Of a stretch of DNA of 64,000 nt, positions 4,988 to 61,333 are shown in pieces. Made by a program: the position numbers and the translations under genes. Below the pieces are notes generated by a model. That model saw only the letters and a list, made by a program, of their open reading frames with translations, was not told the origin of the DNA and did no database searches. The stretch is from Candidatus Saccharimonadota bacterium (GTDB lineage: Bacteria > Patescibacteriota > Saccharimonadia > Saccharimonadales > Saccharimonadaceae): the NCBI GenBank assembly GCA_905371715.1, contig CAJPLV010000002.1, positions 23,694 to 87,693 of the forward strand. Direction: 5' to 3'. The first letter of the stretch is position 1; each line of letters begins with the position of its first letter.

Positions 4988-4993
4988 TACAAT
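4988..4993 (+). promoter_or_regulatory. -10 box of a leaderless gene (5000)
   Basis: TACAAT with an upstream TG (extended -10), ending exactly six bases before the ATG at 5000. Transcription should start at the start codon itself. Confidence 0.6.
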
Positions 4994-4999
4994 AATCAT

Positions 5000-5746
5000 A
5001 TGGACATCGCTGCAGTTGACCAAACTTTGCGCCAGTTAGCGGTCGGCGACGAAAAATATGCGGCGTTTCAGCGACGAATCGTTAATACAAATAAGCGCGT
5101 GTACGGCGTGCGCACACCGGCGCTCCGGCATCTAGCAAAGCAGTTGGCACGCTATGGGATCGGTGCGGCTGGAGGTGATGGCAATAATGAAACGCCGCCG
5201 CTGAACGCTGCTGATATACGAATATTTTTACGCGAGCTTGACGAGACAGTTTACGAACAGGTGCTGCTGGGCGGCTTGCTTATCAATTATACGAAAATGA
5301 ATGACGAAACGATGATTGATTTGATACGCTGCTATTTGTCGCTGGTTGATAGCTGGGCAGGAATTGATACTTTTGTTGAGCGCCGCGCGCGGTTCCGGGC
5401 AGATGCTTGGTGGAATTTTGCATGCGAGAATCTTCATCAGGACGGCGAGTTTTTCGTCCGTTATGGCGTGATTATGCTGATGAGTAATTTTTTGGTGCCG
5501 GACAGTATGAGCCGCGTGTTTACTGAGTTGCGAACTATCACGCATGACGGTTATTATGTCAAAATGGCGATAGCATGGCTGTATGCTGAAGCGGCGCTGG
5601 TTAGTTTCGACCAGACAATGAACGAACTGTCTATTGCGCCAATCGACGTATGGATCAAAAAGAAAGCTATGCAAAAAATGAAAGAGTCGCGTCGGTTTAC
5701 ATCGGAGCAACAAGCAATAATTGCCAAAGAAAGGGGTGTGCTATGA
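5000..5746 (+). CDS. DNA alkylation repair protein, AlkD-like
   Basis: 248 residues with the HEAT-like helical repeats of the AlkD glycosylase family. Family features include VYGVRTPALRHLAKQLA near the N-terminus and a central block with YVKMAIAWLYAEA, WIKKKAMQKMKESRRF near the C-terminus. Relatives excise N3- and N7-alkylpurines. The DNA-facing aspartate and tryptophan-rich surface (RADAWWNFAC) look kept. Its stop overlaps the nitroreductase start (ATGA), so the two are co-expressed. Confidence 0.85.
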   Translation: MDIAAVDQTLRQLAVGDEKYAAFQRRIVNTNKRVYGVRTPALRHLAKQLARYGIGAAGGDGNNETPPLNAADIRIFLRELDETVYEQVLLGGLLINYTKMNDETMIDLIRCYLSLVDSWAGIDTFVERRARFRADAWWNFACENLHQDGEFFVRYGVIMLMSNFLVPDSMSRVFTELRTITHDGYYVKMAIAWLYAEAALVSFDQTMNELSIAPIDVWIKKKAMQKMKESRRFTSEQQAIIAKERGVL

Positions 5747-6408
5747 CAAAATCTATTACGGCGAAGCATATTAATGAGGCGCTGGAGTTTCGCCACGCCT
5801 GCAAGAAGTTTGATCTTAATAAAAAAATTTCAGAGGACGACATGGAATTGCTTTTGCAAGCAGCGCGCTTAGCGCCGAGTTCGTATGGCATGGAGCAATG
5901 GAATATCATCGTGGCGCAGGATGCCAAGCTGCGCGCTCAACTGAAAAAAGCGAGCAGTATTGTGAATGGTCCGCGCTTTGATGCGAGCCATATATTGGTT
6001 TTCACTGCGAAAACTGCGAGCGGGTTTGATAAACATATGACACACATGCTGCGCGACGTAAAAGGCGCGAATGTGGTAACGGCGGCAGCGATGAAGGCGG
6101 GCTGGAAACATTGGGCGAAAACTGATTTTAAGATATACGATACGCCGGATGGACTACACCAGTGGGCGGCACGCCAGGCATATATCGTACTCGGGTTTGT
6201 CATGCTAGCAGCGGCAGAGCGAGGAATTGATTCGTGTGCGATTGAGGGTTTTTCAATTGATAAAGTAGCTGCCGCGTTAGAAAGTTTCAAATTGATCAAC
6301 CGCGATAACGATTTACCGGTAGTAATGCTGGCGCTTGGTTACCGTGCCGACGAATCAACGCATCCGCGCATCCGCCGTGAAATGGACGAGATTGTAACGT
6401 GGTATTGA
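5743..6408 (+). CDS. Nitroreductase family FMN oxidoreductase
   Basis: 221-residue flavoprotein of NfsB type, reducing nitroaromatics or quinones with NAD(P)H. Seen: FRHACKKFDLNKKISEDD (R-x-S/C-x-R/K-x-F like FMN phosphate site), LLQAARLAPSSYGMEQWNII, and the C-terminal ALGYRADE with an FMN-binding basic patch. The ATG at 5743 is taken because AAAGGGG lies just upstream and it overlaps the AlkD stop; a longer in-frame reading from 5650 would run through the AlkD gene. Confidence 0.9.
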   Translation: MTKSITAKHINEALEFRHACKKFDLNKKISEDDMELLLQAARLAPSSYGMEQWNIIVAQDAKLRAQLKKASSIVNGPRFDASHILVFTAKTASGFDKHMTHMLRDVKGANVVTAAAMKAGWKHWAKTDFKIYDTPDGLHQWAARQAYIVLGFVMLAAAERGIDSCAIEGFSIDKVAAALESFKLINRDNDLPVVMLALGYRADESTHPRIRREMDEIVTWY

Positions 6409-6414
6409 TAGCTC

Positions 6415-7269
6415 TTAGAGAGTTGCCCATTTGCTGCGTTGCCGCCGTTTTTTTCGCTTTTCTACACCAACTAAATACCGTCCAAACGTCCAGCCGCGGC
6501 AAATTTTCGGTACAATCCACTCCCACGTTATCCACCAAAGTACCACAATAGCTTGCGGACTGGTTTGGTAAATCGCTGGGGCGTAGACGCGCAATATCAT
6601 GGCACTCATTGACGCTATGAGCATAATTGCTACTGCATCAATACACCCGGCAAGGAAGTGGTTGGCGAGATTATTTTTCACAGGTTCAGCATCGAGTGGC
6701 TGGCTTTTTAGATATTTCTTGAGGCGGAACGTCATGGCGTAGCCGAGTATTGTGCCAAGCGTATTCATTGCTAGATCGTCGACGTCAAACAGACGATAAC
6801 TGCATGGGTAGATATGGAACAATCCGGTCAGCTGTGCAATCTCGATCAAGAATGACAAACCTAAACCTGCCGCGATAGCGAAACGAATGTGTTTTCTAAA
6901 ATACAACGCAACAAATGTGCCGAGCGGCATAAAGAAGCAGATGTTAGCGATAATTTGCAGTGCAGCGGTTATGTGCTTGCTAGGTTGCGCAACATCAACA
7001 ATCCAATGAAGCGGGATAAGCTGCGGCGATAAAGACTGTTTCGCGCAAAACGACGCTGGGTTGTCGGGCATCGGATAGAGAGTGAATAATCCAAGCCCAA
7101 GCAAATACAGTACAAATGTATACGAAAAAATAACATATCCCCATGTTGCCCGCCGCCGTGCTATCAGCCGCGCAATGATGAACGGGATTGTCAGCAAAAT
7201 GCACATAAATGGCCAATACACCAGGCTCAATGCAAAAGACTCCGAAAACGGTTGAAGAAAATGACGCAT
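6415..7269 (-). CDS. VanZ-like / RDD domain fusion membrane protein
   Basis: 284 residues from ATG 7269 (an in-frame ATG at 7287 is possible, but TATCAT ends eight bases before 7269). Residues about 1-195 form a VanZ-like four-to-five helix domain: LFTLYPMPDNP, NICFFMPLGTFVALYF, FLIEIAQLTGLF and VDDLAMNTLGTILGY. Residues about 205-284 match an RDD domain: FLAGCIDAVAIMLIASM, then WGWT-like GWTFGRYLVGVE. VanZ proteins give low-level glycopeptide resistance or envelope functions; the fusion's job is unknown. Confidence 0.8.
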   Translation of the reverse strand: MRHFLQPFSESFALSLVYWPFMCILLTIPFIIARLIARRRATWGYVIFSYTFVLYLLGLGLFTLYPMPDNPASFCAKQSLSPQLIPLHWIVDVAQPSKHITAALQIIANICFFMPLGTFVALYFRKHIRFAIAAGLGLSFLIEIAQLTGLFHIYPCSYRLFDVDDLAMNTLGTILGYAMTFRLKKYLKSQPLDAEPVKNNLANHFLAGCIDAVAIMLIASMSAMILRVYAPAIYQTSPQAIVVLWWITWEWIVPKICRGWTFGRYLVGVEKRKKRRQRSKWATL

Positions 7270-7339
7270 ATATATGTATGATAGCATAATGTAGGATGCT
7301 TATTTTTGATACGGTTTTCTCAGGCTATAATGAAAATAT

Positions 7340-7564
7340 ATGAGAATTACCGTTTACCTAAAACCCGGCAGCAAACGCGGTGATATGGTAGTTGAAAACG
7401 CTGACGGCAGCCTAACGATTTTCACGAAAGAGCCGGCGGTTGACGGGCGGGCAAATGCGGCGGCAATTCGACTCGCCGCTGCGCATATGGGGGTCGCAAA
7501 AACGCGCGTAGTATTACTGCGCGGACGGACGGCGCGGCGGAAAGTATTTGAGATCAGTGATTAA
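7340..7564 (+). CDS. DUF167 (YggU) family protein
   Basis: 74 residues covering the whole DUF167 fold: VYLKPGSKRGDMV at the start, then VDGRANAAAIRLAAAHMG and VVLLRGRTARRKVFEI. Bacterial members are about 90-100 residues, so this is compact but complete. Function unknown in the family. TATAAT (7326-7331) ends eight bases before the ATG with no Shine-Dalgarno, again suggesting a leaderless message. Confidence 0.85.
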   Translation: MRITVYLKPGSKRGDMVVENADGSLTIFTKEPAVDGRANAAAIRLAAAHMGVAKTRVVLLRGRTARRKVFEISD

Positions 7565-7577
7565 TAACTAGAGTCAA

Positions 7578-8738
7578 CTACTTTTGAGTGCGGATTTTTA
7601 GAAATTTGAAAGCATCTTTTTCAGCTGCTGGGTATAATTCCAAGGTTTCCAGGTTTATCATAGACGCAGGAATAATTAACCGCGTATAGGAGTCTGGGCG
7701 AGATCCGTATCTAACAAAAGATACCTCTTGTACACTTGCGTAACATTTTAGGTCAAAATGCTGCGGTTGATTCTTTCGTCTATCGCATTCTGGATTAAGC
7801 TTAAAGTCAATCCCTTTGGCATCTTCCTCCGCTGATCCATGAATGTAGATATCACCTGCTGATTTGAATGCTTTTGCAATTGCGACCTCGCCAGCTATGC
7901 CGCGGACACATCCAGGTATTTCACGTTTGCTATATTCACGAGGAAGCAGAGAGTAAAACGTACCCTCCATAAAATCTTTGACGTCTGAAGCTGACATCTG
8001 TGTATCCCTGGTCAACACGAAATTCGTCATGTCGTGCATGAGGCGAGCCATCTCTACTGCTTCTTTTTTCTCTGTCTTGCTTGAATCTTCCAAACCTAGA
8101 TCTATTTGCCTATTTACGCGGTCTCGGTTATTGTTGCGCCATGCAGCGGGGATTGCCTCAAGAATCGCAACTGCCAAATTTCTTTCGGCTTCTATTTTCT
8201 CAAGTTCTGCTTTTGAATCTGGGTGGATAGTAGCTTTTTCTATGTTGCCGCCGTTAGAACCGCTTTTTATCGATTTTTTAAGGCGACTGATATCCTTGCC
8301 GAAAAACGAATACGCAACAGATTGAGCAATTGATGAACGCCTGTCGGGTGACAGTTGCTGTTCTTCAAAAAGTATGTGGCGATCTGGGCGGTCGATGGAC
8401 TCAATGTCTTTGCGCGATGCATGAGGATTCAGCGCTTTGTATACTCGTTTTTGATATGCGGTTAGTATATCGTTGAAGACGGGAACAGAAAGCTCTGAGG
8501 ATTCTCTCTCAATTGGTTGCGGACCAAATTCGCATGAATAGCATCCTATCTTGGTCGCGTCTTCTAATGATAGAAATTTAAGAATCGGACACAGCGGGCG
8601 TTTACCGGTGTGTTTATTGTCGCTCTCTTCAATGCTATCAATTTCCTCAAGCACTTGACTAAGCGCTTGGTCATCTAGCATCGTATCTTCTGTATTTTCC
8701 GCACAGCTTAGTATAGATTCTTCAAAATTCTTTTTCAC
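7578..8738 (-). CDS. Hypothetical protein with possible PD-(D/E)XK-like core
   Basis: 386 residues, not recognised by family. The N-terminus is acidic (EEIDSIEESDN) and precedes a possible metal site with two cysteines (LCPILKFLSLED, IGCYSCEFGPQP). The C-terminal third has GEVAIAKAFKSAG, then EEDAKGIDFKLN, then QHFDLKCYASVQEV: E...D...D-x-K order resembles the PD-(D/E)XK nuclease core seen in Holliday-junction resolvase and restriction folds, though DLK replaces the usual ExK. No membrane segment. The nuclease idea is inference from motif order only. Confidence 0.6.
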   Translation of the reverse strand: MKKNFEESILSCAENTEDTMLDDQALSQVLEEIDSIEESDNKHTGKRPLCPILKFLSLEDATKIGCYSCEFGPQPIERESSELSVPVFNDILTAYQKRVYKALNPHASRKDIESIDRPDRHILFEEQQLSPDRRSSIAQSVAYSFFGKDISRLKKSIKSGSNGGNIEKATIHPDSKAELEKIEAERNLAVAILEAIPAAWRNNNRDRVNRQIDLGLEDSSKTEKKEAVEMARLMHDMTNFVLTRDTQMSASDVKDFMEGTFYSLLPREYSKREIPGCVRGIAGEVAIAKAFKSAGDIYIHGSAEEDAKGIDFKLNPECDRRKNQPQHFDLKCYASVQEVSFVRYGSRPDSYTRLIIPASMINLETLELYPAAEKDAFKFLKIRTQK

Positions 8739-8792
8739 AGTTTAATAATATAGCATAATAATGCTTATTAGTCAATAATATTGAATGGGGTA

Positions 8793-8821
8793 TTGCTGCA
8801 AACTGTGGTACATGATATAAT
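8793..8821 (+). promoter_or_regulatory. Sigma-70 promoter for the 8873 gene
   Basis: TTGCTG (8793-8798), 17-base spacer, TATAAT (8816-8821) preceded by TGA as an extended -10. The predicted leader is about 45 bases and holds AAGGAG at 8857-8862, ten bases before the ATG. Confidence 0.6.
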
Positions 8822-8872
8822 ATGCAGTCGGTGGCTAAGAAAAAGTGTAAATAAAGAAGGAGTTTACGAGAT

Positions 8873-9136: not shown

Positions 9137-9158
9137 TTTTAATTGTTTGTTAATTTTA

Positions 9159-9315: not shown

Positions 9316-9321
9316 TATAAT
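9316..9321 (+). promoter_or_regulatory. -10 box of a leaderless gene (9328)
   Basis: Consensus TATAAT, six bases before the ATG at 9328. Confidence 0.65.
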
Positions 9322-11246: not shown

Positions 11247-11252
11247 ATTATA
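11247..11252 (-). promoter_or_regulatory. -10 box of a leaderless gene (11240)
   Basis: TATAAT on the minus strand, six bases before the ATG at 11240; it drives the membrane protein plus DsbA-like pair. Confidence 0.65.
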
Positions 11253-15172: not shown

Positions 15173-15178
15173 TATACT
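15173..15178 (+). promoter_or_regulatory. -10 box of a leaderless gene (15185)
   Basis: TATACT, six bases before the ATG at 15185, placed just after the ABC exporter stop codon. Confidence 0.6.
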
Positions 15179-15184: not shown

Positions 15185-16159
15185 ATGGATGTTGTTTTCT
15201 CAGTTGATAAGCAGGCAGCTTTTTATTATTGGCTGCAGATTGTTGCTGGGTGGGATGATTCGTCGGCAGTCGACGCAAAGTCGTTAGCGTATTATACAGG
15301 GCAAATTCACTCCATGTTGTCGCAAGAACAACGAAAAGCACTGCACGATGTAAAATGTATTTTGCAGCACAATGCCAACCCGCGGCAGCTGTTGGCAGAA
15401 TTATACGCTGGTAATATTCGCTCGCATGATGCGCAGATAATTGCAGAGCGGACGCTGTCGTGCATGCCGCTGTTTGAGGCGTTCGTTTGGCGTGATACGC
15501 AAAAAACCATGCTGAGGTGGCGCGATTTACTCCAGGCGTATGATTTCGCGCGTACTAATGAATTGCTTATGAATATTAAGGCCTTTCTCGCTTCGACATT
15601 TGATCTGCATACTACGCTTACAGTCTATATATTGCCGAATATCCCCGATACGGGAGTGATTGGGCATCGGATTAGCGGTACCAACTTTATCTTGCTGCGC
15701 CCGTATATTGAGTACCGCCGAAGCGCTATAGCAAATGTTGTTACCGTTGTGCTGCACGAGTATATTCACGCGATAGAATCATGCTCGACGCATAGCCGCG
15801 CATTGATGAAGCAATCGTACGAGACATGTATTGCTGCGAGCCATATCCGTCCGCCGCATGGATTTACTTGGAAAAATATGTACATTGAAGCGCTGGTGTA
15901 TTGTTTTGCGAACAATATAACCGGCGGATATGCTCGAACGGTTGTGTCTGGTAAACCGTTACCGAGGATTGAAGAGTTCCAACGCGGATTTCACAGATTG
16001 CGATCGAAAGGTACTGCCACGACAAACGATGTAATTGCATGGGCGGGCTTATGCATTACGGATATGGTGGCGCAGTATATTGACGAGGGGAAGGTGATTG
16101 ATGCAGAGATTGTTGACCATATTGGGGGCGTATATCAAGACATGTACAAGATGGCTTAA
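15185..16159 (+). CDS. Putative zinc-dependent metallopeptidase-like protein
   Basis: 324 residues, family not recognised. A helix VVTVVLHEYIHAIESC around residue 195 carries the HExxH zincin motif; a downstream NMYIEALVYCF could give the third zinc ligand, as in gluzincins. No signal peptide or membrane helix is seen, so it would act inside the cell unless exported another way. The rest is mostly helical. Peptidase activity is inferred from the motif alone. Confidence 0.6.
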   Translation: MDVVFSVDKQAAFYYWLQIVAGWDDSSAVDAKSLAYYTGQIHSMLSQEQRKALHDVKCILQHNANPRQLLAELYAGNIRSHDAQIIAERTLSCMPLFEAFVWRDTQKTMLRWRDLLQAYDFARTNELLMNIKAFLASTFDLHTTLTVYILPNIPDTGVIGHRISGTNFILLRPYIEYRRSAIANVVTVVLHEYIHAIESCSTHSRALMKQSYETCIAASHIRPPHGFTWKNMYIEALVYCFANNITGGYARTVVSGKPLPRIEEFQRGFHRLRSKGTATTNDVIAWAGLCITDMVAQYIDEGKVIDAEIVDHIGGVYQDMYKMA

Positions 16160-16631: not shown

Positions 16632-16637
16632 ATTTTA
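16632..16637 (-). promoter_or_regulatory. -10 box of a leaderless gene (16625)
   Basis: TAAAAT on the minus strand, six bases before the ATG of PEBP copy 1. Confidence 0.55.
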
Positions 16638-16780
16638 CCATGCCAGTGTCGTCAGGTGTGAGACGCGGTGAAATATGGAACCGTAGAACACAGCAACTCG
16701 CTGTAGTAGATTAGTTTTTTTACAGATTATAGATACAACTATAAAAGAACAGCTTCTTATCTAAAATAAGTTGGCGACAA

Positions 16781-16811
16781 AAATAACCCTTCTGAATCAG
16801 AAGGGTTATCC
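16781..16811 (-). terminator. Rho-independent terminator of the DUF3800 gene
   Basis: Eleven-base stem ATAACCCTTCT / AGAAGGGTTAT with a five-base loop; on the minus strand it is followed by T5. About 115 bases past the DUF3800 stop. The rest of 16626-16923 shows no gene. Confidence 0.85.
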
Positions 16812-16923
16812 CAACCAGGCGACGTATTTACAATACGCTTAATCAATTTGATCGCTTATGGCTGTGCAACAGTACTTACGTCTGTAAAACTATACTACTA
16901 TACTAAGCACAATGGCGCAAGCA

Positions 16924-17640: not shown

Positions 17641-17867
17641 ATTGGTAATAATTATAACATTTTTCGTAAAAACGCCTGAGCGTTCACTAACCAAATCCGA
17701 AAACTCCCTAGTTTTTAAGTAGCTACCTACCTTGTAAAATAAACCTGGATTATTGTAGTGGTTTTCGAACTCTCTAAGGGTTGATTCTAAGCCTTTTAAG
17801 TTAAGTGACAGATATCTATGTATACATCTTAGCAGGGGCGTTCACTAAACCCTCTATCGTAACAGTC

Positions 17868-17905
17868 TCTCCTCTAGATTAAATTTATTTTCACTACTTA
17901 TTTTA
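17868..17905 (-). repeat. Repeated promoter-leader element, copy 1
   Basis: On the minus strand: a TAAAAT box (17905-17900), five bases, then a six-codon reading frame from GTG 17894 (Met-Lys-Ile-Asn-Leu-Ile, stop at 17874), then AGAGGAG. The block AATAAGTAGTGAAAATAA is identical in the copy at 28499-28539. The interval 17695-17998 holds otherwise only the open frame described for the DUF3800 gene and two copies of GCGTTCACTAA (about 17678 and 17839). Confidence 0.5.
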
Positions 17906-17986
17906 AACTGCGGGAACTGTTATTTTTATTGCGGTATTTGACGAGCCTTTAACAAGTAATCCCTGGAGAGCCACTGGTCTATATGC

Positions 17987-17992
17987 TAAAAT
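17987..17992 (+). promoter_or_regulatory. -10 box of a leaderless GTG gene (17999)
   Basis: TAAAAT six bases before the GTG at 17999. An ATG two bases earlier is followed at once by TGA, so GTG must be the start. Confidence 0.55.
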
Positions 17993-17998
17993 AAACAT

Positions 17999-18151
17999 GT
18001 GAGATATGCTTTTGTTTTCGTGAGTATAGTGGCGATTTGGCTGGCTATGCTGCTGTTGGTAAATACGAGCATTGATCCCTTATTTTTGTATGTTTGCGTG
18101 TTAGTTTTGACGCTGGTGTTGTACTTCATTGGGTTCCGGAGGGCTAGGTAA
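17999..18151 (+). CDS. 50-residue membrane protein upstream of AarF-like kinase
   Basis: Starts with GTG and encodes two membrane helices joined by a short loop: AFVFVSIVAIWLAMLLLV and LFLYVCVLVLTLVLYFIGF, ending in FRRAR. Its stop (18149-18151) directly abuts the GTG of the kinase gene, and GGAGGG near its end serves as the kinase ribosome site. Length, hydrophobicity, promoter and coupling all support a real gene. Function unknown; a membrane tether or partner for the kinase is plausible. Confidence 0.65.
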   Translation: MRYAFVFVSIVAIWLAMLLLVNTSIDPLFLYVCVLVLTLVLYFIGFRRAR

Positions 18152-19603
18152 GTGCGCTTATTATTTGTGGTTCGGGCGTTGTTTCGGGTGTGGCGAGCTT
18201 GGCGCAGCGATCAAATATGGCTCAAAGTTTTATCAGACGAGTGTCAAAGATTAGGCGGCGTGTATGTCAAGTTTTTGCAGCATTTGGCGTCGACTGAACT
18301 GATGGCTCAGGTGTATGCCGCGTCTGGATATCGATTGGATGCTTTTGATGATGTGGCAGTTGAGCCAATTGACGTTGCCGAGGTTTTGCGGCAAGAGTTG
18401 GGTAGCAAAGCCAGCCAAATAGCCGTTGATGGAGACCAGCCGTTTGCTACGGGTTCATTCGCTCAGGTCTATCGCTGCCGCGTAGCTGACCGTCCAGGCA
18501 ACCAGTTTATTATCAAAATTCTTCGCCCTAGCGTGGTGCGCTATCTGAATTTCGACCTCGCAGTGCTGCGTTTTTGCTGTTGGGCGGGGCAATTTATGCT
18601 AAAGAATGATATTTTCCCACTGGGCAAGCTTGCTGATGAGTTTATCAAAACCACCAAGCGCGAAACTGATTATCAGCGCGAGCTAATTACAGCCCAGGCG
18701 ATTCGTGAATATTTTGCCAAGCGTACCGACAACGTTGTTGTGCCGGAGACGCTGGCTGATTACTCAACGCGGCTGATATTGGTTCAGGACTATATAGAAG
18801 GATTGCCGCTAACCGAGGTGGTGGAACAGGCACAAGCGGGAAACGACACCTACCAATTTGTCAAATACCAACTTGGCTCTGATATGCAGCAGCAATTAGT
18901 GACGGTCGGCAGCGAGTTTTTAATCGCAATTTTACAAGCAGATATCATTATGGCCGATCCGCATCCAGGTAATATTTATTTGCTGAGAGACAACAAAGTT
19001 GCGCTCATCGACTTTGGTTTGGCGGTGGCAGCGCCGCGGCATCGCGCCTCGTTTTATCACATGATCGTGCAGTATCGCGCGCTGTATGAAGATCGAGCTG
19101 ACATGGGTTTATTGGCACTGGCGATGCTGGCGTTTTATGATCATACCTTGTACCAAGCGCTGGATGTGATCGCCAAAGATCGCAGCTTGGCTTGCGGTAT
19201 TTATGAATATGCTCATACATTGATCCAGTCGACGACCAGCACATTCGCCGCTAATCGGCAAATAACTCAATTGTTCCTCAATGAGATTAACGCCGGCAAT
19301 CGTTTTGCTGTCAGATTAGACAGTGTTAATATTATGCTGCAGCGCGGTTTGTATCACTATTTGGCGTCGGCGCGGCTGGCCTGCGGCGATGAATATCGAA
19401 AGACGCGCTATTGGCGGATCGTTCATGATGCGTTGGAGTTAGCTGAGGTGCACGCTAATAGTCATGGCGTTAGCGAGGCAGTACGCTCGTCGCCGATGAG
19501 TATTGAGTCAGCGCAAGAAATTGTAATGGATTGGATGAGCAAAGTCGCGGAGCGCGATAGGGTCGCCTACGCCATGTTGTTACAAAAAGGAGAATTATCA
19601 TGA
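18152..19603 (+). CDS. AarF/ABC1/UbiB-family atypical kinase
   Basis: 483 residues. Family features: LGGVYVKFLQHLAST (KxGQ-type extension, here VKFLQ), the Ala-rich nucleotide loop FATGSFAQVYRCRV, catalytic IIMADPHPGNIYLL and metal-binding VALIDFGLAV. UbiB-type proteins support isoprenoid-lipid (quinone) metabolism by ATP-driven extraction; no quinone pathway is visible here, so another lipid is likely. The start is GTG with GGAGGG ahead. Unusual: classic C-terminal membrane helices are absent, while tiny membrane proteins are encoded on both sides. Confidence 0.88.
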   Translation: MRLLFVVRALFRVWRAWRSDQIWLKVLSDECQRLGGVYVKFLQHLASTELMAQVYAASGYRLDAFDDVAVEPIDVAEVLRQELGSKASQIAVDGDQPFATGSFAQVYRCRVADRPGNQFIIKILRPSVVRYLNFDLAVLRFCCWAGQFMLKNDIFPLGKLADEFIKTTKRETDYQRELITAQAIREYFAKRTDNVVVPETLADYSTRLILVQDYIEGLPLTEVVEQAQAGNDTYQFVKYQLGSDMQQQLVTVGSEFLIAILQADIIMADPHPGNIYLLRDNKVALIDFGLAVAAPRHRASFYHMIVQYRALYEDRADMGLLALAMLAFYDHTLYQALDVIAKDRSLACGIYEYAHTLIQSTTSTFAANRQITQLFLNEINAGNRFAVRLDSVNIMLQRGLYHYLASARLACGDEYRKTRYWRIVHDALELAEVHANSHGVSEAVRSSPMSIESAQEIVMDWMSKVAERDRVAYAMLLQKGELS

Positions 19604-19788: not shown

Positions 19789-19855
19789 ATTTTACAGTGA
19801 AATAAGAAATTTTTATACGCTTTACTGACGTACATCATTTACAATAAGAATCCGT

Positions 19856-21969: not shown

Positions 21970-22032
21970 ACTGCATATAGTACGAATCAGCAGGCAGATC
22001 GTCAAGTTATTGTAAATACTTACGTTTTATGT

Positions 22033-22038
22033 TATAAT
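22033..22038 (+). promoter_or_regulatory. -10 box of a leaderless gene (22045)
   Basis: TATAAT with upstream TG, six bases before the ATG at 22045. Confidence 0.65.
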
Positions 22039-24449: not shown

Positions 24450-24589
24450 AATTATTAAGTATAGCATATTTCGTGATGTTTTGCACTTTCGGTGAATATG
24501 GATTACTCTATGGTGATAGCGGCGTAACATATGCTATTTGAAAACCGCTATAATACATTACGCAAGTATATTTTGAAACGATTAGCTAT

Positions 24590-28112: not shown

Positions 28113-28217
28113 ACGGGCTATCATACGGCTTTTTACAAGAAAAATCTAGAGCCGGCAAGCGGCGTGTTTGAGTTTATCTGGGATGAGTACGTCAATTGCA
28201 CTAGCACGCAATACATT

Positions 28218-28701: not shown

Positions 28702-31053
28702 GTGGACGAACCTATTTATATTACATCGGAAATTGGACGACTTCGCACGGTGCTGCTGCATCGCCCGGGCGAAGAATTAGAAAATCTGACGCCGGAAACA
28801 TTGCATGATTTGTTATTCGACGATATTCCGCACCTGAAAGTGGCGCAGGAAGAGCACGATCGGTTCGCGGACGTGTTGCGCGAGCGCGGCATTGAGGTGC
28901 TGTATCTCGACGAGCTGGCAGCAGAATCATTGGCGGATGACGCGGTGCGGCGGCGGTTTGTCGATGAAATGCTTGCGGCGAGCAAACAGGGCGAACGTCG
29001 CGTTACGAGGGCATTGGCAGAATACTTGCTCGGTATGGAGCCGCGCCAAATGGTACGCAAGCTCATGGCGGGCGTACGTAAAGACGAAATCAACTTACCA
29101 GCCGAGCATAGCGAGCAACTGCATGACATGGTTGAGCAGGATCATTATCCATTCTATCTTGATCCGATGCCGAATTTGTACTTTACGCGCGATCCAGCGG
29201 CGGCAATTGGGCGCGGGCTGACGATTAACCGTATGCACTGGCCGGCGCGGCGCCGCGAATCGCTATTTATGCGTTACATCATTGATCATCATCCGCGGTT
29301 TGCCGGCAAAAATATTCCGGTGTGGTACAATCGCGATGAGAAGTTCTCGATGGAGGGCGGCGATGAGCTTATCTTGAATCGCACAACAATGGCAATCGGT
29401 ATTAGCGAGCGTACGACACCGGAAGCGATCGAAACGATGGCGGCAAATTTGTTTGCCGGCTCGGAATTTAAGAAAATTATCGCTCTGCAAATTCCAAAGA
29501 GCCATGCATTCATGCACCTTGATACGGTGTTTACGATGATTGACTATGACAAGTTCACAATTCATCCGGAAATCCGCGACGCTGAAGGACACTTGAATCT
29601 GTTTATTCTGGAAAAAGTCGAAGGACAAAAATACCCGAAGATTACGCGCGAAAATGACTTAGAGCATGCGTTGCGCGTAGCGCTTAGCCTTCCGAAAATT
29701 ACACTGATTGAGTGCGGCGGCGGCGACGAAATCGCGGCAGCCCGCGAGCAATGGAACGACGGAAGCAACACGCTTGCGATCGCGCCAGGCGTGGTGGTGA
29801 CATATGATCGTAATTATGTGACGAACCAAAAACTGCGCGATGCTGGCGTTGAAGTGATTGAAATTTCTGGCTCGGAGCTTGGCCGCGGCCGCGGCGGTCC
29901 GCGCTGTATGAGTATGCCGCTGGTGCGCGAAGAGTTGAAGCACCGCATTGAAGTAAATGATAATCGCGGAGTTAGCGTTCCGGTCGCAAACATGCCAAGC
30001 GCGGTCGCGCCGCGATTTATTGAAAAAGCAGAGCCAAATACCGTGCCATCCGGCAAGTGGGCGCTTTCGCGCGAGTTGCGCGGGCGGTCATTTCTAACGC
30101 TGAAAGATTTCACGCCGAGCGAAATCCGCTTGATGCTTGATACGGCGCACGAATTAAAGCGTCAAAAGAAAAATGGTCAAGCGCACCGTTTGCACGAAGG
30201 TAAGCAGGTCGCGCTACTGTTTGAAAAGACCTCAACGCGGACGCGCTGCGCATTCACGGTTGCCGCAAACGACCTCGGTGTTGCGCCGGAGTTCTTGGGT
30301 AAAGATGATATTCAGCTCGGCAAGAAAGAATCGGTTGAAGATACGGCAAAGGTACTTGGCCGCATGTTTGATGGTATTGAATTCCGCGGCTTCAAGCACT
30401 CGACGGTTGAAGGCTTGGCAGAATTTGCAAATGTGCCGGTGTGGAACGGTTTGACCGACACATTCCACCCGACGCAGATTTTGGCGGACTTCATGACGAT
30501 TGAAGAACATGTCGGCAAGCTGAAAGGCGCGAAGCTGGTGTTTGTCGGTGACGGGCGCAATAATATGGCGAACAGCTTGTTGATTGGTTCGGCGAAAATG
30601 GGCGTTGATTTCCGAATCCTGGCGCCGCGCGAATTGCACCCGGTCGGCGAAATCCTCGAAACGGCGCGCGCGATCGCTGCAGAAACCGGCGCGAAGATTA
30701 TGGTTACTGATAATCACGGCGAGGCGCTTGCGGGCGCAGACGCAATTTACACCGATGTGTGGGCGTCGATGGGCGAAGAAGATCAATTCGCTGAGCGCAT
30801 CGCTCTCCTTAAGCCGTACCAAGTCAACCGCGCAATGCTTGAACAGACGCGCAATCTAAACGTGAAGTTCTTGCACTGCTTGCCGTCCTTCCACGACACG
30901 AATACGACGATCGGCCAGCAGATCCACGATCAATACGGTCTGGATTGCATGGAAGTGACTGACGAGGTCTTCCGCAGCAAACATAGCGTCGTATTCGACG
31001 AAGCTGAAAATCGCATGCATACCATCAAGGCCGTCATGGCGTTGACGCTGTAA
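28702..31053 (+). CDS. arcAB: Arginine deiminase / ornithine carbamoyltransferase fusion
   Basis: 783 residues joining two enzymes. Residues 1-about 415 are arginine deiminase: FTRDP (Asp164), MEGGD (Glu218), MHLDT (His272) and the nucleophile Cys402 in [11 protein letters not shown], all catalytic positions kept; it makes citrulline and ammonia. A Pro/Val-rich linker (about 416-448) leads to a full ornithine carbamoyltransferase (451-783): STRTR (511-515), HPTQ (589-592), [17 protein letters not shown] (725-732). This converts citrulline and phosphate to ornithine and carbamoyl phosphate. Each half has full normal length. GTG start with strong Shine-Dalgarno. First gene of the operon with carrier and carbamate kinase. 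Confidence 0.95.
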
Positions 31054-33991: not shown

Positions 33992-33997
33992 AGTATA
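33992..33997 (-). promoter_or_regulatory. -10 box of a leaderless gene (33985)
   Basis: TATACT on the minus strand, six bases before the ATG at 33985. Confidence 0.55.
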
Positions 33998-34031: not shown

Positions 34032-34060
34032 TTGCACATTTTCTAGCACTCGTATATACT
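34032..34060 (+). promoter_or_regulatory. groESL promoter
   Basis: TTGCAC (34032-34037), 17-base spacer, TATACT (34055-34060). The -10 box lies inside the spacer of the first CIRCE, so repressor binding there would block RNA polymerase. Leader about 53 bases with AAAGGGG at 34107-34113. Confidence 0.8.
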
Positions 34061-34069
34061 GAGTGCTAG
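34043..34069 (+). promoter_or_regulatory. CIRCE operator 1 (HrcA site) of groESL
   Basis: CTAGCACTC - nine bases - GAGTGCTAG, a fully symmetric nine-base-arm match to the CIRCE consensus. Confidence 0.92.
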
Positions 34070-34071
34070 AA

Positions 34072-34098
34072 ATAGCACTCTTACACAGAGAGTGCCAG
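34072..34098 (+). promoter_or_regulatory. CIRCE-like operator 2 of groESL
   Basis: ATAGCACTC - nine bases - GAGTGCCAG; six inner pairs (GCACTC/GAGTGC) match. Two bases after operator 1, in the transcribed leader, so it could add repression or a leader hairpin. Confidence 0.75.
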
Positions 34099-34119: not shown

Positions 34120-34389
34120 ATGAGTTCACCGATCAAGCCGATGGCGCACTTCGTTGTCGCCGTCAAGGAGAAGAAACCGAGTAAAACTGCGAGTGGGATT
34201 CTGCTCCCTGAATCGGCTCAAGAAAAGTCAGAGGCGGCGAAAGTTATAGCCGTCGGGTCGGACGTTAAGGACGTGAAGAATGGTCAAAATGTTGTGTATA
34301 AAAATTACGCAGCGACAACGATCAAACTTGACAAGGAAGAATATTTGATTATCAAAGACGAGGATATCCTCGCAACGGTAGAGGAGTAA
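34120..34389 (+). CDS. groES: GroES co-chaperonin
   Basis: 89 residues, slightly shorter than the usual 94-97. Core blocks are KPSKTASGILLPESAQEKSE (mobile loop region), AKVIAVGSDVKDVKNGQNVV and LDKEEYLIIKDEDILATVE. Caps the GroEL ring during protein folding. First gene of groESL, under heat-shock-type CIRCE control, four bases before groEL. Confidence 0.95.
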   Translation: MSSPIKPMAHFVVAVKEKKPSKTASGILLPESAQEKSEAAKVIAVGSDVKDVKNGQNVVYKNYAATTIKLDKEEYLIIKDEDILATVEE

Positions 34390-41097: not shown

Positions 41098-41155
41098 GCG
41101 TGACAGTATTCCTTTTTTAAGGCTCCTTTCATGATGCGTTCGTATAGTAACGTGC

Positions 41156-44166: not shown

Positions 44167-44197
44167 ATTTTTACCGAGAAAGGTATACTGTAGAATA

Positions 44198-44878
44198 ATG
44201 AAGATTTTAGTCGTAGACGATGAGGTGCGAATCGCCGAGGCAATCAAACAAGGGCTTGAGCTTGACGGCTATGCGGTTGACGTTGAGCACGACGGCGAGG
44301 ACGGTTACAATGCGGCGCGCGCCGATGAATACGATGCGATCGTACTTGATGTGATGATGCCGGTAATGAATGGCTATGAAGTGGCGAAAAAGCTGCGTGC
44401 TGCCGGCGACACAACGCCGATTATTTTACTCACTGCGAAAGACCAAAATCGCGACATCGTGCAAGGGCTTGATAGCGGCGCCGATGACTATCTCGCGAAG
44501 CCGTTTAGCTTTGACGTGCTGGGAGCGCGTATCCGCGCACTGCTGCGCCGCCCGCAGGAGGTACTTGATAATGTACTAGCCGCCAAGGATGTCAGGCTTG
44601 ATACAGTGAATCGGACGGTAACGCGTGCTGGCAAGCCGGTGAAATTATCAAGCAAGGAGTTTGCGATTTTGGAATATTTAATGCGCAATAAAAACCAAAT
44701 CATGAGCAAGCAAAATATCATGACGCACGTGTGGGATTTCGACGCTGATATCTTGCCGAATAACGTTGAGGTGTTTATCAATTATTTACGCGGTAAAATA
44801 GATAAACCATTCAAACAATCCGAGCCGCTCATTCAAACAGTGCGCGGTTTCGGCTATGTGATCAAGGACGGCGCATGA
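44198..44878 (+). CDS. OmpR-family response regulator
   Basis: 226 residues. Receiver domain with acidic pocket DDE (7-9), phospho-acceptor Asp51 in IVLDVMMPV, Thr/Lys switch in ILLTAKDQNRD and DDYLAKPF. C-terminal winged helix: LSSKEFAILEYLMRNKNQIM and TVRGFGYVIK. TATACT (44184-44189) ends eight bases before the ATG at 44198. The histidine kinase gene begins two bases after its stop codon. Confidence 0.95.
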   Translation: MKILVVDDEVRIAEAIKQGLELDGYAVDVEHDGEDGYNAARADEYDAIVLDVMMPVMNGYEVAKKLRAAGDTTPIILLTAKDQNRDIVQGLDSGADDYLAKPFSFDVLGARIRALLRRPQEVLDNVLAAKDVRLDTVNRTVTRAGKPVKLSSKEFAILEYLMRNKNQIMSKQNIMTHVWDFDADILPNNVEVFINYLRGKIDKPFKQSEPLIQTVRGFGYVIKDGA

Positions 44879-46372: not shown

Positions 46373-46378
46373 TACAAT
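46373..46378 (+). promoter_or_regulatory. -10 box of a leaderless gene (46385)
   Basis: TACAAT, six bases before the ATG of the CorA-like gene. Confidence 0.6.
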
Positions 46379-48437: not shown

Positions 48438-48443
48438 TACAAT
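48438..48443 (+). promoter_or_regulatory. -10 box of a leaderless gene (48450)
   Basis: TACAAT, six bases before the ATG at 48450. Confidence 0.6.
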
Positions 48444-52442: not shown

Positions 52443-52469
52443 TTAGCACTCTACTTGTATGAGTGCTAG
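52443..52469 (+). promoter_or_regulatory. CIRCE operator of dnaJ
   Basis: TTAGCACTC - nine bases - GAGTGCTAG, one mismatch to perfect symmetry. Covers the -35 TTGTAT (52455-52460) that goes with TATAAT at 52478-52483 (17-base spacer). Confidence 0.93.
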
Positions 52470-53668: not shown

Positions 53669-53674
53669 TATAAT
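53669..53674 (+). promoter_or_regulatory. -10 box of a leaderless gene (53681)
   Basis: TATAAT with TGA ahead (extended -10), six bases before the ATG at 53681. Confidence 0.65.
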
Positions 53675-57538: not shown

Positions 57539-57595
57539 ACGAAACGGCACGGTAAATGAATTGACACAGAACGAATATAATTATAAAGTAGCACT

Positions 57596-58422: not shown

Positions 58423-59019
58423 TTGCTTGCTCGAGCAGGTGTAGGAATCCCGAAAACGGTGTTTAGCCGCAACTCAACCGATATTGACGATTTGCTTGAG
58501 AAGCTTGGCGGTACGCCGGTGATTATCAAATTAGCGCGCGGCACGCATGGCAACGGCGTCGTGCTTGCGGAGAGTAAGAAGGCGGCGAAATCGGTGCTGC
58601 AGGCGTTTTATCTTACGAATGAAGACGGCACAAACGTATTGCTGCAAGAGTTCGTGAAGGAATCGGCGGGAACGGATATTCGCGCGTTTGTCGTTGGCAG
58701 CCGCGTCGTGGCAAGTATGCGGCGCCAGAGTTTGGATGACGATTTCCGCAGCAACTTGCACAAGGGCGGCGCCGGTACAGCAATTAAATTAACCGATGAG
58801 GAGCGTAAAATGTGCGTGAAAGCGGCACGGGCGATGAACCTGACTGTTGCCGGCGTTGATTTCATGCGTTCGGCGCGCGGACCGCTGGTGCTGGAGGTAA
58901 ATGCTAGCCCAGGCTTCGGCATTGAAAAAATTACAGGGCGCGACGTGGCGACACCGATCATTGAATACATTGAGCGTAACGCCAAGCGGCGGCCGAGGAA
59001 AGACAAGGTCGGAGCGTAA
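58423..59019 (+). pseudogene. rimK: RimK ATP-grasp ligase, C-terminal part after in-frame UAG
   Basis: 198 codons in the same frame as the upstream part: LLARAGVGIPKTVFSRN, VIIKLARGTHGNGVVLAES (ATP loop), VLLQEFVKESAGTDIRAFVV, DFRSNLHKGGAG and LVLEVNASPGFGIEKITG with metal-binding Glu and Asn. Total with the first part is 303 codons, the normal RimK length. All catalytic blocks are kept, so decay is recent if real. A TTG directly follows the TAG and could restart translation. Confidence 0.85.
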
Positions 59020-59152
59020 CGGCTGGCGCAATGCGCATGCTGCGGAAAAGAATGGACGGGAATTTATAAAACAACGCAGCAGTCTTTTAATGCTAATACG
59101 ACAGTTTGGTCTTGTGATGATTGATTTGCCTGAAGCATGGCATTGCTCATGC

Positions 59153-59158
59153 TAAAAT
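59153..59158 (+). promoter_or_regulatory. -10 box of a leaderless gene (59165)
   Basis: TAAAAT, six bases before the ATG at 59165. Confidence 0.55.
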
Positions 59159-59164
59159 AGCAAT

Positions 59165-59653
59165 ATGACCTATCTCATCATTCTGGGAATCTATCTTGCG
59201 ATTTTATTTGCGGCGGCATGGCTGAGCCATCGAAATTTAGGCGTGCCGACATTAGCGCTCGCGGCAGGTGCATTGCTTGCGGATGCGTGGGCGAGCAGTT
59301 TGGCGCCAGTCGTGGCGCAAGCGGGGCTTGTTTTGACGAAGCCGCCGCTGACAAGCGTGGTGGCGGCGGTGTTGACGCTGTTGCCGGCGCTCATCGTGAT
59401 GGTGCGGGCGGGGCGCGCGTCGTCTCGGTGGCATAGCGTTACGGGAGCGTTTGTCTTTGCAGTTTTTGCAGTCATGCTGACGTACGGCGCATTTCGCGCT
59501 GCGGTCGAGATGGACGACGCAAGCCGGCAGTACGCGACGTATATTATGCAGTATCGCCACACGATTATCACAGCGTGCATTGTTTGTGCGGTTATGGAAA
59601 TTAGTTTTCGCCGCCAACCGCATGCGAGTGCGGCGGATAAAAAGAAGAAATAG
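59165..59653 (+). CDS. Four-helix membrane protein, CvpA-like layout
   Basis: 162 residues with about five hydrophobic stretches (YLIILGIYLAILFAAAWL, TLALAAGALLADAWAS, VVAAVLTLLPALIVMV, VTGAFVFAVFAVMLTYGAF, TIITACIVCAVMEI) and a Lys-rich tail. No family block is recognised; the layout recalls colicin-V-production-type membrane proteins but this is weak. Stands alone. Confidence 0.6.
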   Translation: MTYLIILGIYLAILFAAAWLSHRNLGVPTLALAAGALLADAWASSLAPVVAQAGLVLTKPPLTSVVAAVLTLLPALIVMVRAGRASSRWHSVTGAFVFAVFAVMLTYGAFRAAVEMDDASRQYATYIMQYRHTIITACIVCAVMEISFRRQPHASAADKKKK

Positions 59654-59712
59654 AGCGAAGCAACGAACGCAGACGCTGCGATTTCGCAGAATTTTATTGC
59701 GTGATAATAAAA

Positions 59713-59732
59713 ACCCACTCCTACGGAGTGGA
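59713..59732 (-). terminator. Rho-independent terminator of tRNA-Lys
   Basis: CCACTCC / GGAGTGG stem with a three-base loop; on the minus strand it is followed by GTTTTTATT. Lies 17 bases past the tRNA 3' end. Confidence 0.8.
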
Positions 59733-59748
59733 TAGGTTTCAAAAAGTA

Positions 59749-59825
59749 TGGAGGGTCCAGTGAGGCTTGAACTCACGACACCCTGCTTAAAAGGCAGGTG
59801 CTCTAACCAGCTGAGCTATGGACCC
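59749..59825 (-). tRNA. tRNA-Lys (anticodon TTT)
   Basis: 77 bases. Acceptor GGGTCCA/TGGACCC, D arm AGCTCAGCTGGTTAGAGC, anticodon stem CCTGC/GCAGG around CTTTTAA (anticodon TTT), T arm GAGTTCAAGCCTC, encoded CCA at 59751-59749. The discriminator base is U, unusual because A is the common Lys identity base. Confidence 0.93.
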
Positions 59826-59872
59826 GAACGATTCGTATTATACCGCTTGTCGGCGGGTGAGTCAAGCTGTGG

Positions 59873-59878
59873 TACTAT
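59873..59878 (+). promoter_or_regulatory. -10 box of a leaderless gene (59885)
   Basis: TACTAT, six bases before the ATG of the ComEC-like gene. Confidence 0.55.
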
Positions 59879-59884
59879 CGGGGT

Positions 59885-61333
59885 ATGAATTGGCTGCGCG
59901 AGCGGATTCATTTGATGTGGCATGTCGCGGCGCTGTGCTACGGTGCGGTTATTGGCGTCGCGGCGGCTCAGTGGATTCGGGCAGATATTCCCGGGTGGAT
60001 CGCTGGGCTGGCGGCGCTCGCCATTTTCGCAGTTATTATCAAAACGCCGCAGCGGTATATGATTGTGCTAGCGGTAGCGGCAGGCGCGTGCGTAGGACTG
60101 GTGCGCGGGTCGGGCGATCAAGCATGGCTCGCGGTATACGAGCCGCTGATTGGTCGCCAAGTAGTGTTGTCTGGCATAGTGAAAGACGACGCCGACGTAG
60201 CGGCAGGCGGCGGTTTGCGCTTGCAAATTATTGATGTAGCGTTGGGTGAGCGGTCGCTGCCCGGGCAGATTTGGGTGACAATCGCGAAGCCGGGCAATAT
60301 CAAGCGCGGCGATCGGCTGAGGCTTAGCGGTACGCTGCGCGCTGGGTTCGGTAACTATGCAGCGTCGCTGGCGCGGGCGTCAGTGCTCAAAATTAAGCGC
60401 GTGCCGGGCGGCGATCCGGCGCTAGAATTGCGCGATGGTTTTGCGGCGCAGGTGCGGCGGGCAATTCGCGAGCCGGAAGCGAGCCTCGGTATCGGCTTTT
60501 TGCTGGGCAAAAAGAGTGAACTGCCGCCACAGTTGTTAGAAGCGCTGAAAATCGCCGGACTGACGCATATCATCGTGGCGAGCGGCTATAATTTAACAAT
60601 TTTAGTGCGCTTAGCGCGGCGTTTGTTTGCGAAAGTGTCGAAGTTTTTGGCAATGTTTGCAAGCGCGGGGTTAATTGGCGGATTTATGGCGGTGACCGGT
60701 CTCAGCCCGAGCATGACGCGCGCCGGCCTCGTGACGGGGTTAAGTTTGTGGGCGTGGTATTACGGTCGTAAATTTCATCCGGTCGTACTGCTCGGCATAG
60801 CGCTTGCAATAACAACGCTATGGAATCCGAGCTACGCATGGGGAGATGTCGGCTGGCAATTGAGTTTTGCGGCGTTTGCGGGCGTTATCATCGTTGCGCC
60901 GATTATGACGGCGTACTTTTTCGGTCGGCAGACTGCGCCGGCGATCGGGCAAATTTTACTGGAAACGTTGGCGGCGCAATTAGTAACCGCGCCTGTTTTG
61001 CTGGTGGCATTCGGGCAAATTAGCGTGATTTCGCTTCTTGCAAATTTACTCATCGTGCCGTTTATCCCATTCACAATGGTGCTGGCGGCGGGCGCGGGCG
61101 TTGGCGCGATGATTGCACCCGGCTTGGTGGCAGTGCTAGGGTATCCGGCGCAATTCGTACTGTCGTGTATGATAGCGGCGACCTACTGGTGTGCCGAACA
61201 GCCGTGGGCACAAATCACACAGCAGGTTGGCTGGGTTGGCGCTGCGGCGTGGTATGTGGTGTTGCTCGCGGCAGTGGGGTATATGAAACGCGCGAGCGGC
61301 TACAGATTGCGCGACGCGTCGGTAGTAGAATAG
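59885..61333 (+). CDS. comEC: ComEC/Rec2 competence domain protein without MBL domain
   Basis: 482 residues. N-terminal helices and OB-like domain (about 1-150), then the competence membrane domain: GFLLGKKSELPPQLLEALKI, GLTHIIVASGYNLTILVRLA (HxxASGxN block) and GFMAVTGLSPSMTRAGLVTG. It forms the DNA channel in natural transformation. The C-terminal metallo-beta-lactamase domain present in the Bacillus protein (about 770 residues) is absent, so strand degradation must be done by another protein or not at all. Confidence 0.9.
   Translation: MNWLRERIHLMWHVAALCYGAVIGVAAAQWIRADIPGWIAGLAALAIFAVIIKTPQRYMIVLAVAAGACVGLVRGSGDQAWLAVYEPLIGRQVVLSGIVKDDADVAAGGGLRLQIIDVALGERSLPGQIWVTIAKPGNIKRGDRLRLSGTLRAGFGNYAASLARASVLKIKRVPGGDPALELRDGFAAQVRRAIREPEASLGIGFLLGKKSELPPQLLEALKIAGLTHIIVASGYNLTILVRLARRLFAKVSKFLAMFASAGLIGGFMAVTGLSPSMTRAGLVTGLSLWAWYYGRKFHPVVLLGIALAITTLWNPSYAWGDVGWQLSFAAFAGVIIVAPIMTAYFFGRQTAPAIGQILLETLAAQLVTAPVLLVAFGQISVISLLANLLIVPFIPFTMVLAAGAGVGAMIAPGLVAVLGYPAQFVLSCMIAATYWCAEQPWAQITQQVGWVGAAAWYVVLLAAVGYMKRASGYRLRDASVVE

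Follow-up and report, generated by a model that had tools for sequence, protein, structure and literature searches.

The window, meaning the whole 64,000-nucleotide stretch of DNA analysed here, belongs to a Saccharibacterium, a member of a group whose genomes are very small and which has been studied little. A preliminary description had placed a -10 hexamer exactly six bases before the start codon of thirteen genes, and all 13 sites read as such, with a TANNNT hexamer ending six bases before 12 ATG codons and one GTG. Ten looser sites had been placed 7-10 bases from their starts, and nine of these hold a TANNNT hexamer, while the tenth, at 3293, holds TATAAA at 8 bases. Since the listed starts were chosen with the promoter in view, thirteen is higher than an unbiased count. 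The sites are given below with the number of bases between hexamer and start (spacing) and, where recorded, their state in G001, the nearest relative genome compared with the window, and in G011.

4988..4993, forward strand: TACAAT directly preceded by TGT, spacing 6, ATG 5000, DNA alkylation repair-like protein; identical in G001 and G011
9316..9321, forward strand: TATAAT, spacing 6, ATG 9328, TylF-like methyltransferase; identical in G001 and G011
11247..11252, reverse strand: TATAAT, spacing 6, ATG 11240, protein without Pfam match; kept in G001 and G011, with two spacer bases differing
15173..15178, forward strand: TATACT, spacing 6, ATG 15185, previous same-strand gene 17 nt away; kept in G001 and G011
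16632..16637, reverse strand: TAAAAT with TGg, spacing 6, ATG 16625, PBP family; kept in G001
17987..17992, forward strand: TAAAAT with TGc, spacing 6, GTG 17999, 50-codon frame
22033..22038, forward strand: TATAAT with TGt, spacing 6, ATG 22045, GNAT acetyltransferase; kept in G001, whereas in G011 both the start and the -10 are changed
33992..33997, reverse strand: TATACT, spacing 6, ATG 33985, 88-aa protein; AATACT in G011
46373..46378, forward strand: TACAAT, spacing 6, ATG 46385, CorA-like transporter; kept in G001 and G011
48438..48443, forward strand: TACAAT, spacing 6, ATG 48450, CBS-domain protein; kept in G001 and G011
53669..53674, forward strand: TATAAT with TGa, spacing 6, ATG 53681, protein without Pfam match; unmatched in the compared G001 and G011 stretches
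59153..59158, forward strand: TAAAAT with TGc, spacing 6, ATG 59165, protein without Pfam match; kept in G001 and G011
59873..59878, forward strand: TACTAT with TGg, spacing 6, ATG 59885, ComEC-like protein; kept in G001
3279..3284, forward strand: TATAAA (weak, not TANNNT), spacing 8, ATG 3293, NUDIX protein
7278..7283, reverse strand: TATCAT with TGc, spacing 8, ATG 7269, VanZ-like protein, divergent to 7340; spacing 10 in G011
7326..7331, forward strand: TATAAT, spacing 8, ATG 7340, DUF167; kept in G001 and G011
17651..17656, reverse strand: TATAAT with TGt, spacing 10, ATG 17640, DUF3800
19840..19845, forward strand: TACAAT, spacing 10, ATG 19856, UDG superfamily
21977..21982, reverse strand: TACTAT, spacing 7, ATG 21969, second PBP family gene
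24458..24463, reverse strand: TATACT with TGc, spacing 8, ATG 24449, CHAP domain
28120..28125, reverse strand: TATGAT, spacing 7, ATG 28112, DUF475/TerC; TATCAT in G011
41143..41148, forward strand: TATAGT, spacing 7, ATG 41156, glycosyltransferase-like protein; start GTG in G011
44184..44189, forward strand: TATACT, spacing 8, ATG 44198, response regulator

The start at 44198 is supported by the receiver domain, which begins at residue 3. The 50-codon frame at 17999, which had been offered as a small gene revealed by the spacing rule, found no support: compared with G001 it carries three substitutions in 153 bases, one per codon position, and its upstream DNA is identical, so that it is without coding signal, and it starts with GTG, a codon that shows no hexamer peak (below). 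The -10 at 17987..17992 may belong to the gene at 18152 instead.

Counting independently of gene calls covered all ATG codons of the window on both strands and six common -10 hexamers, with spacings 15-40 as background. In the window, spacing 6 yielded 17 occurrences of the six hexamers, compared with 5.2 (sd 2.0) for the average background spacing; in G001 (480 kb), spacings 6, 7, and 8 yielded 71, 62, and 46, compared with 31.2 (sd 5.5). The hexamer peak 6-8 bases before ATG was shared by the window and most sampled relatives; the idea of a spacing fixed at exactly six found no support in the window's genus, which taken as a whole shows 6-8. Most of the family peaks at 6, most sharply in G014, G022, G023, and G024, while G030 has a broad peak at 6-10 and G038 only a weak one. 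G008, from the same genus as the window, showed no clear peak for the six hexamers over 100 kb (7, 8, and 6 against 5.8), and its whole genome held 30 copies of the strict pattern TATAAT-N6-ATG against 6 of the reversed pattern. The strict pattern outnumbered its reversal in 40 of 40 relatives. Neither GTG nor TTG showed a hexamer peak in the window, G001, G014, G022, or G024; at spacings 6, 7, and 8, GTG counts were 41, 45, and 32 against 37.0 in G001, and 11, 14, and 11 against 16.7 in G022. De novo expectation-maximisation (EM) on first genes recovered TATAAT at 6-8 from the 183 sequences of G001 and mostly at 6 from the 95 of G022 and the 68 of G024, but recovered it neither from the 30 of the window alone nor from the 71 of G014, which gave AGGAGG; the method was underpowered on small sets (window, G014, and G022 in one run; window and G014 in another).

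The enriched word has the character of a promoter element. At spacing 6, TATAAT was the only strongly enriched member among its 20 anagrams (121 against 22.2, or 5.5-fold), the other 19 lying at 0.4-2.3-fold. TGn preceded the hexamer at 60% of 336 sites compared with 21% of 841 controls, and a -35 match at the right spacing was found at 25% of sites compared with 17% of controls, which bears out the earlier impression of weak -35 boxes and common extended motifs. The spacer and the second codon are A-rich, and such biases around start codons have been described (PMC5397173), so the A/U-rich zone usual there could in principle yield TATAAT-like words devoid of promoter function. This is extremely improbable given the anagram specificity, the TGn, the peak in spacing, its absence at GTG and TTG, and the small excess at operon-inner genes reported below.

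The base before the start codon suggests where transcription begins. A pyrimidine occupied position -1 at 87% of 203 sites with spacing 6, which is what a transcript with the A of ATG as +1 should show; the share was 49% among 842 controls and 59% among 336 ATG codons led by a Shine-Dalgarno (SD) sequence. With the -10 box only 6-8 bases before the start, the start codon itself is the probable 5' end of the mRNAs. Alternatively, the -10 boxes could be real and transcription could start a little ahead of ATG, by 1-5 bases, so that strictly leaderless genes would be a subset and the leaders of the others would have no room for an SD. The window's spacings of 7-10, the broad peak of G030, and the lower pyrimidine share at spacings 7 (63% of 97) and 8 (76% of 37) would fit such short leaders, but the peak at 6 in most of the family and the pyrimidine at -1 there make them unlikely as the general case, and favour a start at the A of ATG.

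Substitutions were counted at 22 of the 23 sites (3293 omitted), of which 21 were aligned in G001 and 13 in G011. Between the window and G001, hexamers differed at 1 of 126 bases and spacers at 9 of 145; in G011, hexamers (4 of 78) were not clearly better conserved than upstream DNA (25 of 382). Among 434 between-genera pairs of orthologues that are both first genes, 81 had the signal in both members (odds ratio 3.1, p 1e-7). In other-genus pairs with the signal in both, the ATG was exactly aligned in just 41 of 97, and some calls are therefore chance hits or mis-set starts. Promoter alignments were impracticable where relatives are rare, as for the VanZ-like (4 of 24 genomes) and UbiB-like (2 of 24) genes.

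The signal follows operon position. Its excess was 13-35% in first and mid genes across nine samples, compared with 1-10% in inner genes of eight relatives and -6% among the window's 18 inner genes; G014 (10%) was the least clean of the nine, and 3-17% of inner genes also scored with the signal. That SD sites are retained inside operons proved broadly right and incomplete: in G001, an SD at least five bases long precedes 37 of 113 inner genes and also 36 of 183 first genes, and many first genes are SD-led. SD-like 4-mers occurred in 3.6% of 336 spacers. In five samples, no start had the -10 together with an SD at least five bases long (0 of 358 genes in G001), an exclusion that is partly geometric and does not count as strong evidence. 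This matters for the possibility that the -10 beside the ATG is active while the main transcript, with an ordinary leader, originates farther upstream: the gene at 15185, 17 nt behind a same-strand gene, could receive such read-through, but as -10 and SD did not occur together in these samples, longer leaders would have no SD, and secondary promoters are a very unlikely general explanation.

The presumed groES and groEL form a leadered contrast class, headed by the following feature:

34044..34097, forward strand: two tandem inverted repeats, CIRCE-like, upstream of the gene at 34120 and groEL (34394)

The gene at 34120 is presumably groES from its position before groEL. The expectation that heat-shock genes keep SD sites was right for groEL (AGGAG) and the gene at 34120 (AAAGGGG); dnaJ (52495) has TATAAT 11 bases before its ATG and only a weak AAGG.

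The anti-SD is retained. A search with an Rfam model gave a 16S match in 17 of 40 genomes, and 12 loci were read; the 3' ends located in this way read GGATTACC, with CCTCC intact in 12 of 12 and no altered or missing CCUCC, hence no lost anti-SD among them. The pattern GGATCACCTC was discarded as a marker of the 16S end after landing on non-rRNA sites in both places read.

Across 117 genomes of the phylum, a test based on one hexamer counted 6544 sites at spacings 6-8 against 3839 expected, with a significant excess after correction in 56 genomes; the other 61 did not reach significance. The estimated share of called genes with the arrangement was 12-22% in five samples of the family. Outside the phylum, the AT-rich matrix used here showed no ATG peak in the intended positive controls, 50 kb of a Deinococcus plasmid and 33 loci from actinobacteria, and TATAAT-N6-ATG was absent across the whole Deinococcus plasmid; at GTG, the actinobacterial loci gave 13 and 19 sites at spacings 6 and 7 against 7.5. 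In the E. coli negative control (40 kb), 0 of 19 first genes had the signal at 5-7 or 8-10, and 1 and 1 of 14 inner genes did, respectively. G161 (12 against 12.4), whose label is uncertain, was the sole outside negative of appreciable size.

Other bacteria are known to have this arrangement, which looks common in the present group. Zheng et al. (2011) described TA-led genes, in which a TANNNT/TATAAT some 10-12 bp ahead of the start is read as the -10 and the gene hence as leaderless; in Actinobacteria and Deinococcus-Thermus their share exceeded 20% of genes, and some low-GC genomes showed a strong TG before the box (PMC3160421). The -10 near the start is the same here, while the Patescibacteria lineage, the -1 context test, and the restriction to ATG differ, and the term 'candidate division' is absent from the available text on those 953 bacterial genomes (PMC3160421). 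In Deinococcus-Thermus, about 30% of ORFs adjoin a -10 motif and yield leaderless mRNA, with promoter function proven by reporters (Zhong et al., 2025; PMC12340547); a -10 motif adjoining the ORF is seen here too. Zhong et al. (2025) mention a domain-wide survey, and the available main text contains neither Patescibacteria nor 'Candidat-' (PMC12340547). Almost a quarter of mycobacterial transcripts are leaderless with the start codon at the 5' end, ATG or GTG (Shell et al., 2015; PMC4633059), whereas enrichment in this Saccharibacterium is at ATG only. SD-scarce organisms with an altered anti-SD include, among the candidate phyla listed, Absconditabacteria, Campbellbacteria, Wolfebacteria, and a Peribacter; these lack CCUCC, which the 16S loci read here retain, and Saccharibacteria are unnamed in the available main text (PMC10783764). 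No report of leaderless promoters in Saccharibacteria or Patescibacteria was found in the searched open-licence literature, which does not prove that none exists; in three papers returned by these searches, 'leaderless' appeared only in cited titles or a remark on YchF.

Taken together, the peak position, the restriction to ATG, the extended -10, the pyrimidine at -1, the operon-first bias, and the sharing between orthologues lend good statistical support to the initial proposal of widespread leaderless promoters, and this Saccharibacterium and its relatives are predicted, with a high degree of confidence, to make leaderless, AUG-restricted mRNAs alongside SD-led genes. A sizeable minority of transcription units would be led by promoters of the sigma-70 type in which an extended -10 (T-R-T-G-n-TATAAT) is the dominant element and ends 6-8 bases ahead of ATG. 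There, RNA polymerase would start at or beside the A of ATG and produce a leaderless mRNA, whose 5'-terminal AUG would be recognised by ribosomes independently of an SD; the same ribosomes would use SD initiation for genes inside operons and for another group of first genes.

It is reasonably probable that Patescibacteria in general, beyond this one genus, have long relied on extended -10 promoters for leaderless, AUG-restricted expression as one of their major modes. It would account for an estimated 12-22% of called genes in the five samples of the family, and about half of the sampled genomes of the phylum show a significant excess; individual lineages would have gained or lost it, while the order Saccharimonadales keeps the anti-SD, a short S1-like protein, and IF3. 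Patescibacteria are mostly uncultured, and their start sites are usually set with the SD in mind. A -10-to-ATG rule would mend many N-termini in Patescibacteria, predict promoters directly from sequence, and help in designing expression constructs for the few members in culture. A large radiation of reduced genomes would also join the known range of leaderless initiation, which is relevant to the way in which the SD and leaderless modes replace one another.

Inspection of the bases upstream of all 23 start codons cited in the preliminary description showed TANNNT six bases before each of the 13 genes listed with that spacing, and at 7-10 bases in nine of the ten looser cases, the exception being 3293 with TATAAA. 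At 19 of the 22 TANNNT sites, a T or C immediately precedes the start codon. Two PBP family genes ~5 kb apart, 16625 and 21969, each have a leaderless-type promoter.

Counting -10 hexamers k bases before any ATG required no gene calls and, for six common hexamers in the window, returned 17 at k=6 vs 5.2 per spacing at 15-40. The count also showed a k=6 excess in the nearest genome, G001 (480 kb; 71, 62, and 46 at k=6, 7, and 8 vs a background of 31.2), and in the relatives G011 (18 vs 8.8), G014 (41 vs 14.3), G022 (49 vs 12.3), G023 (48 vs 16.8), and G024 (31 vs 8.9). G005 had its maximum at k=7 (17 vs 4.2), and a clear peak was not seen in the six-hexamer count for G008. A strict six-base rule should be dropped; across the window's genus the spacing is 6-8. 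Outside the family, G030 showed a broad peak (18-23 at k=6-10 vs 11.4), G029 a maximum at k=7 (29 vs 12.8), and G038 a weak peak. Strict TATAAT at spacing 6 exceeded the reversed-pattern control in 40/40 relatives searched. GTG and TTG had no spacing peak in the window, G001, G014, G022, or G024; this ATG-only enrichment is unlike mycobacteria, which use ATG or GTG (PMC4633059).

The small GTG-start gene proposed at 17999 should likewise be dropped, given that GTG lacks a spacing peak and the frame lacks a coding signature. Window 17850-18151, comprising upstream DNA and the 50-codon frame, is 98-100% identical to G001 (next gene 90%) and is conserved at the DNA level. Nearby, a DUF3800-I RNA (RF02969, 77.7 bits) lies at 16773-16892 (-), directly downstream of the DUF3800 gene 17640 (-).

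The signal has the character of a promoter. In 1.56 Mb of pooled sequence (nine samples), TATAAT stood out among its 20 anagrams with a 5.5-fold enrichment at k=6, ahead of TTAAAT at 2.3-fold and all others at ≤1.5. Both the TG extensions and the weak -35 boxes described earlier held up in 336 sites with spacing 6-8 and an ATG opening at least 60 codons: TGn occurred in 60% vs 21% of 841 control sites, and at least four matches to TTGACA were found at the right spacing in 25% and at wrong spacings in 11% (controls: 17% and 11-12%). The base table at spacing 6, T-G/A-T-G-n-TATAAT, reads as an extended -10. Bacterial RNA polymerase favours a purine start preceded by a pyrimidine, and a pyrimidine directly precedes ATG in 87% of 203 spacing-6 sites, compared with 49% in 842 controls and 59% in 336 Shine-Dalgarno (SD)-led ATGs, an independent pointer to +1 lying at the A of ATG.

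Using a purpose-written gene caller, the excess of genes with a strong -10 at 5-10 bases before a candidate ATG was scored by operon place. It was 22% for the window's 48 first and mid genes and, for those of the other samples, 32% in G001 (245), 21% in G014 (95), 35% in G022 (108), 26% in G023 (125), 23% in G024 (84), 24% in G030 (149), 23% in G029 (127), and 13% in G038 (136), and for inner genes -6 to 10% across samples; multiplied out, this corresponds to ~12-22% of all called genes in five same-family relatives. De novo EM on first genes recovered TATAAT in G001, G022, and G024, AGGAGG instead in G014, and nothing useful from the window. SD sites of at least 5 bases preceded 36/183 first, 13/62 mid, and 37/113 inner genes of G001, so that the proposed SD use inside operons broadly holds, though not for all inner genes. 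Heat-shock genes had also been said to keep SD sites, which applies to groEL (AGGAG) and the preceding gene (AAAGGGG); dnaJ has TATAAT 11 bases before its ATG and a weak AAGG. These genes are preceded by CIRCE-like inverted repeats of the form TAGCACTC-N9-GAGTGCTA (the second groE copy ends GAGTGCCA):

Window 34044-34097: two tandem CIRCE-like inverted repeats, upstream of the groE genes (groEL and the gene before it)
Window 52444-52468: one CIRCE-like inverted repeat, upstream of dnaJ

At 28702-31053, a single 783-aa frame spans two enzymes, with arginine deiminase at residues 5-411 and ornithine carbamoyltransferase at residues 457-783. Next come genes for a YfcC-like antiporter (31080) and a member of the amino acid kinase family (32645), so that the region from 28702 onward reads as an arginine deiminase pathway in which the enzymes of the first two steps are fused.

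The window (GC 49%, two tRNAs in 64 kb) is identified by its sequence as Candidatus Saccharibacteria DNA, the closest named relatives of its DUF475 protein being Saccharibacteria MAGs (top identity 76%). Of the window's sampled 31-letter words, 56% also occur in G001 (genome ~0.9 Mb, with one contig of 864 kb), and large window parts align to the 720-800 kb region of G001 at 95-97% DNA identity. Across 21 sites compared with G001, differing bases numbered 1/126 in hexamers, 9/145 in spacers, 20/611 in upstream DNA, and 32/399 at third codon positions; across 13 sites compared with G011, they numbered 4/78, 9/86, 25/382, and 29/244, respectively. In G011, start and -10 have both changed at the counterpart of 22045, and the counterpart of 41156 has a GTG start. 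Among 434 reciprocal-best pairs of first genes across genera, 81 carried the signal in both, 151 in one only, and 202 in neither (odds ratio 3.1, p 1e-7, with pairs non-independent). In 97 other-genus pairs of all gene classes with both signals, ATG fell at the identical aligned residue in 41 and ≤2 residues apart in 58.

An evenly drawn survey of 117 genomes of the phylum, using exact TATAAT and expectations from spacings 16-35, found 2680 sites vs 1280 expected at spacing 6 (48 genomes with a ratio of at least 2 and p<1e-3; 38 with p>0.05), and 6544 vs 3839 at 6-8 (56/117 with a ratio of at least 1.5 and Bonferroni p<0.05; nine with a ratio <1). Ratios were 1.67-4.09 in eight sampled members of the window's class, with G069 below the corrected threshold, and 3.5-4.1 in its family. 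The survey is probably conservative, because it misses weaker hexamers and its background includes real leadered promoters; it nevertheless tests a single hexamer in each genome. Spacing-6 counts in assemblies labelled Patescibacteria and Parcubacteria were 25 vs 2.6 (G163) and 13 vs 1.25 (G164); G161, labelled Desulfobacteraceae, showed no excess (12 vs 12.4). In two genomes labelled Gastranaerophilales, TATAAT-N6-ATG occurred 211 times where 64.5 were expected (G159, locus L071) and 81 times where 42 were expected (G160, locus L110), and leaderless promoters are possible there too.

The architecture itself is already known elsewhere, as PMC3160421, PMC12340547, and PMC4633059 describe; the open-licence papers searched yielded no report of how far it extends in Saccharibacteria and their phylum. 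The spacing peak, TGn, pyrimidine at -1, and first-gene excess make the predicted leaderless promoters, claimed from the start to be widespread, well supported as an inference from sequence in the window and its relatives.

A 16S match was present in 17/40 genomes, and the 3' end is GGATTACCTCCTTT in 12/12 loci compared, with the anti-SD core intact; all 12 (L130-L141) read GGATTACCTCC, which differs from the usual GGATCACCTCC at a single base immediately 5' of the anti-SD. An S1-like protein, covering approximately the first 350 of 516 rpsA positions, occurs in G001 and relatives (29/30 searched) and would be a shortened S1; none of the relatives' matches exceeded the curated rpsA cut-off, which only 2/14 control genomes pass. 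IF3 was found in 28/30 relatives, 27 above its cut-off. The intact anti-SD, S1-like protein, and IF3 together suggest that SD initiation can be retained and coexist with the leaderless mode.
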